The position numbers and the translations under genes are program-made. Positions 33,933-38,944 of a DNA stretch of 64,000 bases are shown here, in pieces. The number at the start of each line of letters is the position of its first letter. Within the stretch, counting starts at the first letter, position 1. This DNA comes from Paludibacterium denitrificans (GTDB taxonomy: Bacteria > Pseudomonadota > Gammaproteobacteria > Burkholderiales > Chromobacteriaceae). The stretch lies in NCBI RefSeq assembly GCF_009707705.1, contig NZ_WLYX01000001.1, forward strand, positions 62,001-126,000, written 5' to 3'. The notes beneath the pieces were generated by a model. It was not told the DNA's origin and made no database searches. It saw only the letters and a program-made list of their open reading frames with translations.

Positions 33933-35148
33933 ATGCTGGATTCCGCCACCCGCACCCTAGTCAAAGCCACCGTTCCCGTATTGAAAGAACACGGCGTCAC
34001 GCTGACGACCCACTTCTACCGGCGCATGTTCCAACACAACCCGGAGCTGAAAAACATCTTCAATCAGGGACACCAACATTCTGGCCAGCAACAGCAAGCA
34101 TTGGCGATGGCAGTTTTGGGTTATGCAGACAACATCGACGACCCATCGGTACTGACACCAGTACTCGGCCGCATTGCCCATAAACATGTCAGCCTTGGCA
34201 TTCGCGCCGAGCATTACCCGATTGTCGGTAAGCACCTGCTGGCATCTATCCGCGAAGTACTGGGTGACGCGGCGAGCGATGAGCTGATCAACGCCTGGGC
34301 TGCCGCTTATGGCCAACTGGCCGACTTATTGATTGCCGAAGAGAACAAGCTGTACGCCACCGCAACTGTCGCTGAAGGTGGCTGGAGTGGCTGGCGTCCG
34401 TTCAAGGTTGGCCGAAAAGTCGTCGAGAGCGAAGAAATCACCTCGTTCTACCTCTACCCGGCTGATGGCGGCAAAGCTCCGACGTTCCGACCCGGCCAGT
34501 ACATTAGCGTGCGCCAGTTCATTGCCGACTGGAACCTGGCGCAACTACGCCAGTACAGCCTGTCTGACGCGCCCAACGGCGAGTACCTGCGCATTTCGGT
34601 AAAACGTGAAGATAGCCGCGCGGGAGGCCCCCGCCAAGGTATCCAGCCAGCTGCATCAAACCCTGAACGAAGGCGACGTCATCAACATCAGCTATCCGTT
34701 TGGCGACTTCTTCTTGCACGAGGAACGCAATACCCCCGTTGTGCTAATCAGCGCAGGCGTCGGCCAGACACCGATGCAAGCGATGCTGCAGCACCTGATC
34801 AACAGCGGCAGCCAACGTAGCATCCGTTTCCTGCATGCCTCGCGCCACGGTGGCGTACACGCCATGAAAGCCCATACCCAGCAATTGGCCGAGCAGCATG
34901 ACAATGTAAAAACCATGGTGTACTACGAAACGCCGCGCGCAGAGGATATCCAGGGCAAGGATTACGATCGGGCAGGCCGGATTGATCTGACACAAGTGGC
35001 TGCAGACATGCTACCGGCGGACGCCGATTACTACCTGTGTGGCCCGCTGGGGTTCATGCTGGCGCAGCGTGACAGCCTGCTGGAGCTGGGGATTGAGCGC
35101 AGCCGCATCCACTATGAAGTGTTTGGCTCGCATACCGTCGCCAGCTGA
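33933..35148 (+). CDS. hmp: Flavohemoglobin, nitric oxide dioxygenase
   Basis: Converts NO and O2 to nitrate. Globin domain (residues ~1-138; proximal region HVSLGIRAEHYPIVGKHLL), ferredoxin-reductase-like FAD domain (FRPGQYISV, LRQYSLSDAP) and NAD domain (VLISAGVGQTPMQAML, YYLCGPLGFM). One shift near 34635, best explained as a CCWGG lesion inside KRED...KVSSQLHQTLNEGD. ~405 residues. Preceded by two NsrR-like sites and followed by nsrR. Confidence 0.92.
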
Positions 35149-35225: not shown

Positions 35226-35675
35226 ATGGCCAACACCATGCAACTTACCCGCTTTACCGACTTGGGGTTGCGCGTGCTGATGTACCTGACTCACCGCGAA
35301 CACGACACCCCGGTCACCATTACCGAAATTGCCAACAATTTTGCCGTATCCCGCAATCATCTGGTCAAGGTGGTGCACTTCATGGGGCTGCAGGGCTGGA
35401 TACGTACCACGCGTGGCAAGGGTGGCGGTCTGGCGCTGGCACATCCACCACAGGAATATCGCTTGGGCGATATCATCCAGCGAATGGAAGCACCGATTGA
35501 CTTGATCGATTGTGCCGAACCGCCTTGTGCCCTGCGCAATGGCTGTCAGTTGAAGCTGGCGCTCAATACCGGTTTGGCTACTTTTTTTGAAACCATGAAT
35601 CGCTACACCCTGCAGGACATCATCGCCTCTCCGACCGGTGAAGCCATTATTCAACTGCACCGTCAGGCACACTAA
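35226..35675 (+). CDS. nsrR: Rrf2-family NO-sensing repressor
   Basis: 149-residue winged-helix regulator, frame intact. MQLTRFTDLGLRVLMYLTHR is the classic Rrf2 N-terminus, and NNFAVSRNHLVKVVHFM is the recognition region. Three clustered cysteines in IDCAEPPCALRNGCQ are the Fe-S cluster ligands. NsrR loses repression when NO attacks the cluster. Placement directly after hmp and the dyads upstream of hmp support the assignment over IscR. Confidence 0.88.
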   Translation: MANTMQLTRFTDLGLRVLMYLTHREHDTPVTITEIANNFAVSRNHLVKVVHFMGLQGWIRTTRGKGGGLALAHPPQEYRLGDIIQRMEAPIDLIDCAEPPCALRNGCQLKLALNTGLATFFETMNRYTLQDIIASPTGEAIIQLHRQAH

Positions 35676-35681
35676 GAACAC

Positions 35682-35711
35682 AAAGGTTGGCCGAATTCGG
35701 CCAACCTTTTT
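35682..35711. terminator. Terminator made of two inverted uptake-like words
   Basis: Two GTTGGCCGAA copies face each other with no spacer (35686-35695 and 35696-35705). With the matching AAAG/CTTT flanks they form a perfect palindrome with 14-base arms, followed by TTTTT. It sits seven bases after the nsrR stop, against the end of rlmF. Inverted DUS pairs serve as terminators in Neisseria in exactly this way. Confidence 0.85.
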
Positions 35712-36763
35712 CATAACCTGACGACGACAGCCATTGGTCCAGTAACACACTGCGCAGACCCGCCAGCGCAATCAACTTCTTTTTTATCGTCTGATCGCTG
35801 CCGCCATTCCTGACGTTGTGGCAGGTCGAAAAAAGTCCAGGCAACCAGTCGACTTTGCTTTTGACCTTGCGCCATGTTGATGGTTTTGCTGTCGCGAACG
35901 CCAGCCTGCTGCAATGCCCGATAAACAGCGGGCAAGCTGGCTGCTTTGGCGATCAGGCTGGTAAACCACAGGCAATGAGCGGCAAACTGCCTTGAGCTTT
36001 CCATGATCATGCGGGTGACAAAACTCTCTTCACCACCGGGACACCACAATTCGGCATGTTGGCCGCCAAAATTCAGTGTCGGGCCCTTCTTTCCTGACTG
36101 AGCCTTGCCCAGATTCTTCCACTTCCGCTGCGTTCCGGCTGTCGCTTCGGCCATTGAGCCATGGAATGGTGGATTGCATAAAGTCAGGTCAAAATAGTCA
36201 TCGCTACGAATGACGTTGTTGAACATGACGTTGGCCGAAGGCTGACGCCGTAGTTCAATCGCCAGTTCCAACCCGGCATTCGCCGCGAGGATGGCCTGAG
36301 CATTGGCCAATGCACCTTGATCAATATCGGCCCCGACAAAACTCCAACCATATTCGGCGTGACCGATCAACGGATAGACGCAGTTGGCACCGACGCCAAT
36401 ATCCAGCACACAGACGCCCGGCCCGCGCGGGATGATGCCGTTATGACTGCGCGCCAGCAAATCTGCCAAACAATGCAGGTAATCCGCGCGACCGGGAATG
36501 GGCGGGCACAGAGAGCCAGCCGGAATATCCCAGTCACGCACTCCATACATGGACTGCAACAAGGCCCGGTTGAGTAACTTGACCGCCACCGGGTCGGCAA
36601 AATTGATGGATGGATCACCGTACGGGTTGCTGACGACATGGGCGGCCAATTCCGGGCAGGCAGCACACAATGCGGCAAAATCGTAGCGCCCTTGATGGCG
36701 GTTACGCGGATGCAAACCGCTAGCAGGTTTTGCTGCCTTGGCAGCGGACGACTTGGCACGCAT
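35711..36763 (-). CDS. rlmF: 23S rRNA adenine-1618 N6-methyltransferase
   Basis: SAM-dependent methyltransferase. [22 protein letters not shown] is the diagnostic N-terminus; [16 protein letters not shown] is the SAM-binding motif and [13 protein letters not shown] the NPPF catalytic motif. The start at 36763 (MRAKSSAAK) leaves a short basic lead as in homologues; an in-frame ATG at 36826 exists. Frame intact. Its end runs into the inverted-repeat terminator shared with nsrR. Confidence 0.92.
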
Positions 36764-37079
36764 GTTACTTCCTGTTGAGACGAGCAGCGATGGTGGGGCA
36801 ACGGGCTTGAAAGCCAGTCTTACCATCGTTTACGAGGGTATGAGACTTGCGCGGAATTTTAGCAGGATCAGGACGTCATCACGCGGGCGTAATGCCAAAC
36901 ACTCCACTACGCTGGAATAGCGCCCAGCACGAACTAGGGATTTCCCCTATACACCGACGAATAAAACGAATGTATGTTTTATGCTGAAATTCTGAATGAA
37001 TTTCTGGCTCTTGACATTTGGCAAGACAGATATCCGCCCTTACATACCCGCCTGATGGCGGGCATTTTTTTGCGATGAA
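36764..37079 (+). other. Intergenic stretch with a possible short RNA ending in a terminator
   Basis: 316 bases with no convincing protein gene. The right half is AT-rich (ATAAAACG, ATGTATGTTTTATG near 36960-36980; TTGACA near 37012) and ends in a strong plus-oriented terminator at 37047-37071. No plus-strand gene precedes that terminator, so a small transcript is possible; I see no recognised RNA family. Confidence 0.35.
37047..37071 (+). terminator. Orphan rho-independent terminator
   Basis: CCCGCC / GGCGGG stem, TGAT loop, then CA and seven Ts. The orientation is plus, but the nearest upstream genes are on the minus strand. Confidence 0.75.
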
Positions 37080-37296
37080 CTACGCCGCATGCCCGCAGGG
37101 TTTCTCCGAGCGCTCCACGATCTCACTCTTGCGCAACTTCAAATCCAGTAGTTTGTGTATTTCAATTACCACCCCGGCGGTATGGACGGATAGCAGCACC
37201 GTGGCTGCCCTGGCGGGCGTGGTGTTCGCTGGGGTGCAGGGGGCCGTCGAAATCCACACCGATGATCGGGGAGATCAACTTCACCTTGTAAAACAT
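37080..37296 (-). CDS. Short hypothetical protein, apparently frameshifted
   Basis: An ATG at 37296 has a good Shine-Dalgarno (AAGGAAGG) and opens MFYKVKLISPIIGVDFD. In the next frame a continuous stretch runs APCTPANTTPARAATVLL to IHKLLDLKLRKSEIVERS and ends PCGHAA before a stop at 37080. The two halves meet near 37250, where a CCWGG lesion would give VDFDLAPCTP. Joined length ~72 residues. The charged C-terminal helix looks protein-like, but I recognise no family. The plus-strand ORF over the same bases is probably its shadow. Confidence 0.4.
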
Positions 37297-37493
37297 GCTT
37301 GCCTTCCTTACGGCTTATCAAGCGGCGTACCTTACGCCAGCTGGGTGACAGTTGATTGACAGGACAGATTGTGCACGCTGGCGATTGCTCATTTAGTTCG
37401 TGTTCGTACTATTTTTGAACAGCGATGAACTATTGGAGTAAACTGTAGACATAGGATTAGTAGCTCCCTCTATCCATCGAACGAGGCACACAC

Positions 37494-37685
37494 ATGTCTT
37501 CAAGCATTGGTAGTATCTCTGGTCAACAATTTCAGGCTGCCGTGCGTTCGACCACGCCGCAGCAGGTGAAAACTGGCCGTGACAGTGACGGCGATAATGA
37601 CAACAGCAAAGCTGGCGAAGTAGAGAAAAAAGCCAGACAACCGGTTTCTTCTACCGTTGGCACGCGCATCGACACCACCGCCTGA
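37494..37685 (+). CDS. Small hydrophilic hypothetical protein
   Basis: 63 residues, highly polar (TGRDSDGDNDNSKAGEVEKKARQP), likely disordered, with no cysteine or membrane segment. It has an upstream purine-rich site (GAACGAGGCACACAC), its own AT-rich leader and a strong terminator 24 bases after the stop, so it looks like a real single-gene unit. Family unknown. Confidence 0.55.
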   Translation: MSSSIGSISGQQFQAAVRSTTPQQVKTGRDSDGDNDNSKAGEVEKKARQPVSSTVGTRIDTTA

Positions 37686-37708
37686 TCAGGTTCAGGCGTG
37701 TCATGAAA

Positions 37709-37738
37709 ATAGCCACCCTCATGGGTGGCTATTTTTTT
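37709..37738 (+). terminator. Intrinsic terminator after the small hydrophilic gene
   Basis: Eight-base stem (AGCCACCC / GGGTGGCT), TCAT loop and seven Ts. Confidence 0.9.
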
Positions 37739-37775
37739 GTGTCCGACGCAGAGCTAAAGCCTTATCGGAGCTGAC

Positions 37776-38944
37776 TCAATCAAACTGTCGGCGGAACAGC
37801 ACCAGACCGAAACCAAACACCAGCAAACCAATACCGGTCATGCTTCAGCAATCGACCCGGCCAAATCATGCCAGCCCTGCCCTTTGAGCAAGATGCCGAA
37901 GGCGATATCCAGATAATAATGCAGCGGTGAGATCAGCATCATCAGGCGCAGCCACGGCGGCATGGCTTCCGGCGGGGTCCAGGGCGCCGGACAAGAACAA
38001 CATGGGCGCCAGAATCAGGATGGCCAGCATGCCGACTTGCGCCAGATTACGGGCGACAGTGGCGGCAAACAGGCCAAGCCCGGCGGTGGTAAAAACATAA
38101 AGCCCGCTGACGGCAAAGAACAAGGCCAGACTGCCTTTTACCGGTATGGCAAACAGCGGAATCAGCACCAGAAACAGGCTGAGCGCCACGCCGATGAGGA
38201 TGACCCCCGTCATCGACACCACCTTGGGGAACATGATGCCGAACGGAGACAGCGGCGAAACGATGAGCTGCTCGACCGTGCCGCGTTCTTTCTCACGCAC
38301 CATCGCCGCGGCTTAAGCAGCAACACGGCAAACACGGTGGCGATATTGAGGATTTCCGACAGGCCCATGAACCAGCTGTCTTCCTCGTTGGGATTGAACC
38401 ACACCCGCACGTCGTTGCTGACAACCGGCAGGTTGGCCGAAGAACGATCACCAGCGACGCCGAGCCGCGTCATCGCCTGTTCCAGACCATAACTGCTGAT
38501 GATCTGCTGCGCATAGCTGGTGGCGAGAAACCCCAGCACGGAATTGGTGGTATCCACCTGCATGGCCACCGGCGTTTGGCGCCCGGTTTCCGTGTTTTCG
38601 GCCAACCCGTGCGGGATGGACAGCAACAGCATGGCATTGCCCTGATCCAGCGCCGCCAAGCCAGCCTTGTCGTGCAGCACTTCACCGTCCACCCGGAAAT
38701 ACGGTTCGCGGAAACGGGCCACCAGTTCGCGCGAGGCTTCGGTGCGGTCGAGGTCTTGCACCAGCGTGGCGGCATGATTGAGTGACAACGACACACCGGA
38801 TGCTGCGATAAAAATATCCACGGTAAAGGCGTAGACGATAAACCCGAGCAACACCCGGTCACGCCCCAGTTGCTTGAGTTCCTTGACCAGCATGACGGCA
38901 AAGCGCCGAATGGCCATCTGCCACCACAACAAGGTATTGCTCAT
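37776..38944 (-). CDS. ABC-2 type permease, second of two (YbhR/YbhS-like)
   Basis: ~390-residue membrane subunit. N-terminal helix (LLGFIVYAFTVDIFIAASG), a large periplasmic domain, then five C-terminal helices containing the ABC-2 hallmark MVREKERGTVEQLIVSPLSPFGIM. Shifts near 38310 (GCTTAAGC for GCCGGC), near 37983 (extra C at a CCTGG: GAWTPPEAMPPWLR expected) and near 37830 (GCTGAAGC for GCCGGC) are all of the recurrent type. The tail LHYYLDIAFGILLKGQGW then reads through to LFRRQFD and a stop at 37776. Pairs with the permease upstream. Confidence 0.82.

Follow-up and report, generated by a model that had tools for sequence, protein, structure and literature searches.

A head-to-head pair of DUS-like words as the probable terminator between nsrR and rlmF in Paludibacterium denitrificans

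Results

A perfect palindrome of 28 bp, AAAGGTTGGCCGAATTCGGCCAACCTTT, lies between nsrR and rlmF at positions 35682..35709 of the window, the 64-kb stretch of DNA analyzed here; it belongs to neither strand in particular. The site is very probably an intrinsic (Rho-independent) terminator, the hairpin of which would be formed by two abutting, opposed copies of a DUS-like uptake word, GTTGGCCGAA. This terminator would serve nsrR and probably, from the other side, rlmF as well. As for the word itself, it most likely marks self DNA for natural transformation.

The palindrome consists of two 14-nt arms (35682-35695 and 35696-35709), 100% complementary and with a spacer of 0 nt: copy 1 of GTTGGCCGAA is located on the plus strand (35686..35695), copy 2 abuts it on the minus strand (35696..35705), and the outer ends are AAAG/CTTT. 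The initial annotation had described such a pair, head to head, without spacer and extended to perfect 14-base arms, between convergent genes, and both the structure and its location between nsrR (+) and rlmF (-) were confirmed. The five Ts said to follow the pair were found as a run on the plus strand (35707..35711), which would provide the U tract for nsrR transcripts; they do not all follow it, however, because the first three are paired within the right arm, so that the full palindrome is followed by just two unpaired Ts on this strand.

In RNA the palindrome is predicted to fold into a 12-bp stem carrying an AAUU loop, with -21.5 kcal/mol (z -7.3) for the plus strand and -21.3 kcal/mol (z -5.5) for the minus strand. 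The site thus has the stable GC-rich hairpin of an intrinsic terminator, and a U tract comes directly after it: the tail is CCUUUUUC on the nsrR strand, the better of the two, and UUUGUGUUCUU on the rlmF strand, the weaker. This weaker tail and the shortness of the unpaired T stretch on the plus strand count against a terminator. No Rfam family matched the palindrome site.

The gene nsrR (35226..35675, +) codes for an Rrf2-family NO-sensing repressor, and its stop codon TAA (35673-35675) is separated from the palindrome by 6 nt. Its product matched the NCBIfam NsrR model with an E value of 1.7e-33, yet under the curated cut-off of that model. Transcribed in the opposite direction, rlmF (35711..36826, -; start of the gene call at about 36649) codes for a 23S rRNA (adenine1618-N6)-methyltransferase (E 3.7e-133 against the family model). 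In the assembly the rlmF stop codon (35711-35713) is 2 nt away from the hairpin, and a terminating ribosome could block the folding, which also counts against a terminator. The family model stops at residue 332 of 371; the final 39 codons before the stop are either an extension or a frameshift artefact. The upstream neighbour of nsrR, an hmp-like flavohaemoglobin gene (33933..35148, +), is split in the assembly between overlapping frames, one at 33933-34820 and the other at 34606-35148. At an assembly completeness of 80.6%, this split points to indel errors and not to a pseudogene. Since the rlmF model ends early and the hmp-like gene is split, indel errors may be present in the assembly, and rlmF may in reality stop further from the hairpin. 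Beyond rlmF, the approximately 1.2 kb that precede the next confident gene (36650-37837) contain one weak gene call; a hairpin followed by TTTTTTT is found there, at 37047-37070.

Counting of the word in the 3.35-Mb genome gave 1,851 copies of the 10-letter GTTGGCCGAA (884 and 967 by strand), approximately 0.55 per kb, against 24 (10 and 14) for the reversed control. The window alone contains 45 copies, against 0.26 in shuffled sequences. Such numbers, far above expectation, agree with what is described for DUS, short words of which either strand holds copies and which total hundreds to thousands. When one mismatch at most was allowed, 2,513 copies were counted in the genome (539 for the reversed control), a ratio of 1.36 to the exact copies, which falls within the 1.15-1.45 of the DUS examples given in Frye 2013 (PMC3630211). 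Sampled stretches had shown no surplus of one-mismatch copies, but this possible anomaly disappeared genome-wide, with 662 such copies against 515 for the control. In the 5' flank of the 45 window words, where AG-DUS carries its AG extension, A occupies position -2 in 28 and G position -1 in 19. The window also contains a second, rarer repeat, the palindrome TGCTTAAGCA, in 4 copies against 0.04 expected (7332, 40731, 42267 and 53692); two are located in genes and two at gene edges, and all four adjoin or sit inside minus-strand genes.

Within the window, 27 of the words lie on the coding strand of genes, 10 are antisense and 8 (18%) are intergenic. Single words are thus not concentrated between genes, intergenic DNA making up 15.5% of the window. 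This even spread through genes would fit a different explanation, namely that the palindrome does terminate transcription, but that the word is abundant for a reason other than uptake (nucleoid-protein binding, segregation or repair, as in HIP1- or KOPS-like words) and is reused by terminators. We consider this unlikely: the two orientations of GTTGGCCGAA are about equal in number (884/967), unlike those of strand-biased segregation sites, and the forming of terminators from inverted pairs has been documented as a by-product of uptake words (PMC1852404, PMC3630211). Evidence from relatives and from the putative receptor, given below, bears on the same choice.

Pairs of GTTGGCCGAA copies with a spacer of 0-30 nt were counted in the genome and compared with the expectation from the strand counts. 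Head-to-head pairs numbered 48 against 7.9 expected (about 6-fold, P about 5e-22) and tail-to-tail pairs 27 against 7.9, whereas same-direction pairs were depleted (7 against 15.9). Exact head-to-head pairs occur, on average, once per 64 kb. Three of the 48 abut without spacer, as between nsrR and rlmF (0.26 expected); this form is a minority here, although one relative, which has a different dialect, shows it frequently (see below).

The gene context of the pairs was determined with a codon-based HMM, allowing frameshifts, on 3-kb stretches around them. Forty-five of the 48 head-to-head pairs were intergenic, 25 of them between convergent genes, 20 in tandem settings and 0 between divergent genes; only about 1.6 would be expected if intergenic words paired randomly (about 28-fold). 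Sixteen of the 20 tandem pairs are found at 36 nt or less from the upstream stop codon. In the 8 nt past the hairpin, tandem sites have 3.8 Ts on the gene-downstream side, compared with 2.2 on the opposite one (p=0.0019, Wilcoxon test). This excess of inverted pairs, associated with terminator positions, is a further property of DUS.

These counts support the terminator reading of the nsrR/rlmF site made in the initial annotation, which had proposed a genome search for other inverted pairs and their position relative to stop codons. It had named as a refuting outcome a pair frequency not above the expectation from single copies, and the observed frequency is well above it. As the word is dense, some pairs (the 7.9 mentioned above) should arise by chance, and the pair could in principle be such a meeting of two abundant words. 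That explanation is hardly credible, given the excess overall and between genes, the depletion of direct pairs, and arms that reach 14 nt and are accompanied by a T run. It is also improbable that we are dealing with a protein-binding operator, or with an uptake site of dimeric type recognized twice by ComP, and that termination is incidental. A perfect DNA dyad with zero spacer would suit such a site, and in Frye 2013 (PMC3630211) the dyad-arranged DUS of Simonsiella muelleri are discussed as possibly hinting at recognition by a dimer. An operator or dimeric site predicts neither the intergenic location of 45/48 pairs with none between divergent genes nor the gene-directed T tails, and helical phasing is not kept, since most pair spacers measure 1-24 nt.

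The tail-to-tail pairs have almost no T tail, although they are mostly found in tandem settings at 7-32 nt past a stop codon; 12 of the 13 in such settings follow plus-strand genes (stretches L020-L034 and L097-L104, position ~1501). A scan of genome contigs for the abutting pair returned a single match, in an unrelated Polyangiaceae MAG.

Related genomes were surveyed in samples of 20-80 kb each, with a whole-genome count for genus g2. The word GTTGGCCGAA (GAA dialect) was found in g1, g2, g3 and g6, as well as in genome G006 of g7; GTTGGCCGAG (GAG dialect) was found in g4 and GTTGGCCGCA (GCA dialect) in g5. No comparable enriched word appeared in g8, g9, g10 or the other sampled members of g7. 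Dialects among related genomes are characteristic of DUS. That they differ by genus while a shared core stays, and that the word is patchy even within a genus, argues against an abundance owed to a function other than uptake. G006 carries 1,368 genome copies of GTTGGCCGAA, while its congeners are at background counts; GTTTGCCGAA is over-represented too in its sample (L050 1-20000). This points to a recent gain or loss of the word and perhaps to two dialects in one genome.

Pairs were also compared across relatives with the shared core alone held fixed. This genome had 54, the remaining genomes of the GAA dialect 10-45, g4 36-67 and g5 82-130, against 0-2 where the word is missing (g8, g9, g10 and g7 apart from G006). 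A further 24 families of the order had none. The local dialect is present in both arms, so the paired positions have changed together. In genome G012 (g4) the zero-spacer form GTTGGCCGAGCTCGGCCAAC is common, frequently with A and T runs alongside, and nsrR is followed by AAAAAAGCTCGGCCAACCCTCAAAGGGTTGGCCGAGCTTTTT, a hairpin of its own dialect in the other orientation, plus TTTTT. G003 (g4) has a partial own-dialect pair behind nsrR; in the remaining relatives either none or an ordinary hairpin was found at this position. The 7 tandem pairs of G012 showed no T-tail asymmetry. G012 was used qualitatively only, as the gene model is less reliable in this GC-rich genome, where 8/20 pairs were called coding.

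Two minor pilins with a ComP_DUS domain are encoded in tandem in the genome, downstream from a PilY1-like gene (stretch L187 2152-3140) which was recognized by its sequence, without family search. Since the Pfam ComP_DUS model matches nearly every relative and is not discriminating, the pilins were compared with PDB chains. The first matched generic pilins, while the best match of the second (C3:1519214-1519636) was Neisseria ComP (2M3K, E 3.4e-5, with LLENAHFM shared). When 22 orthologs from the family were combined into a profile, the three ComP chains 2NBA, 2M3K and 5HZ7 came first among all PDB chains (E 1.1e-18, 4.6e-18 and 2.2e-17); the next pilin had an E value of 1.3e-12. Judged by sequence, a cognate ComP-type receptor, as expected for DUS, is thus encoded, with a putative role in word binding. 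The presence of this ortholog argues against a word maintained for other reasons; the occurrence of ComP-like pilins both with and without the word speaks for such other reasons. The orthologs in genera without the word weaken the link to the receptor and indicate that having the receptor gene is not enough to have the word.

Discussion

The results point to an uptake word that has been recruited, in pairs, as a terminator. The word would be kept at about 0.55 copies per kb by biased uptake and recombination during transformation, presumably through a ComP-type minor pilin. Two close, opposed copies behind a stop codon would then give a strong hairpin in the transcript; the excess and the position of such pairs are observed, the fold is predicted. 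The 5' extension of the word (AAG) would furnish the far side with a short U tract, which point mutation could improve on the strand of the upstream gene. This last step is based on the statistical strand asymmetry of the T tails, from which termination is inferred. Both arms match the word and are not merely complementary, and in relatives they change together with the dialect, from which we infer that the pair is retained for both roles.

The nsrR/rlmF pair had been put forward as the strongest single argument that the word is functional. We do not share this ranking: the genome-wide count, the dialects of the relatives and the ComP ortholog are stronger.

The principle of a terminator made of paired uptake words is already known, from Neisseria and from the Pasteurellaceae (Haemophilus). 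What seems new is the word, unreported and in a family without a reported tag: no report of GTTGGCCGAA was found in the open-access articles searched. In the same literature, published DUS work is confined to the Neisseriaceae, and the CTG core is held to be universal. In Frye 2013 (PMC3630211), Laribacter, Lutiella, Pseudogulbenkiania and Chromobacterium were reported to have no obvious DUS. Judged by eye, the 16S sequence of the present genome is Chromobacteriaceae-like within the Neisseriales, in keeping with the genome sizes and GC content of the family. We consider it likely that the words described here form a further lineage of uptake sequences in a family of Neisseriales outside the Neisseriaceae (probably the Chromobacteriaceae). 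This lineage would comprise three dialects or more (GTTGGCCGAA, GTTGGCCGAG and GTTGGCCGCA), would be recognized by ComP orthologs without the CTG core, regarded as universal and essential, and would be patchily gained or lost between and within genera. If so, the diverged word, its dialects and the receptor orthologs of this sister family would provide natural experiments on how receptor and genome word change together, and the recruitment of paired words as terminators would have happened repeatedly. Arms shifting in concert with the dialect are evidence of selection on the hairpin and on the word alike.

Compared with the DUS of Neisseriaceae, GTTGGCCGAA is likewise a 10-mer in about 2,000 copies, accompanied by a ComP-type receptor gene and by dialects between genera. 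Its pairs resemble DUS pairs in preferring the head-to-head orientation, as in Kingsford 2007 (PMC1852404), in being rarely same-direction, and in their convergent gene ends and T tails that follow gene direction; in that study DUS and USS pairs were argued to be terminators by the criteria used here. The Neisseria-like arrangement claimed in the initial annotation is therefore borne out. The word itself differs from GCCGTCTGAA and its relatives, and intergenic DNA is not enriched in it. According to Frye 2013 (PMC3630211), CTG at +6 to +8 and A at +10 are common to the eight DUS dialects published; GTTGGCCGAA has CCG in place of CTG, which counts against its membership in the published DUS family, although in function the site would act like a DUS-pair terminator. 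A at +10 is kept in GTTGGCCGAA and in the GCA dialect, while the g4 dialect has G there. Between g1 and g5, position +9 changes from A to C, which parallels AA-king3DUS, AAGCAGCCTGCA (PMC10715097). Exact pairs occupy approximately 6% of convergent gene ends (25 pairs in about 420 regions, a number extrapolated from the 8 of the window), a far smaller share than in Neisseria, where DUS pairs are used by roughly 55% of terminators (PMC1852404). As with the USS of Pasteurellaceae, two complementary uptake words make the terminator hairpin, although the word is unrelated to the AAGTGCGGT type and the gammaproteobacterial family is a different one. With ordinary intrinsic terminators the site shares a GC-rich hairpin and a U tract behind a stop codon; unlike them, it has arms that are both exact copies of a genome-wide word.
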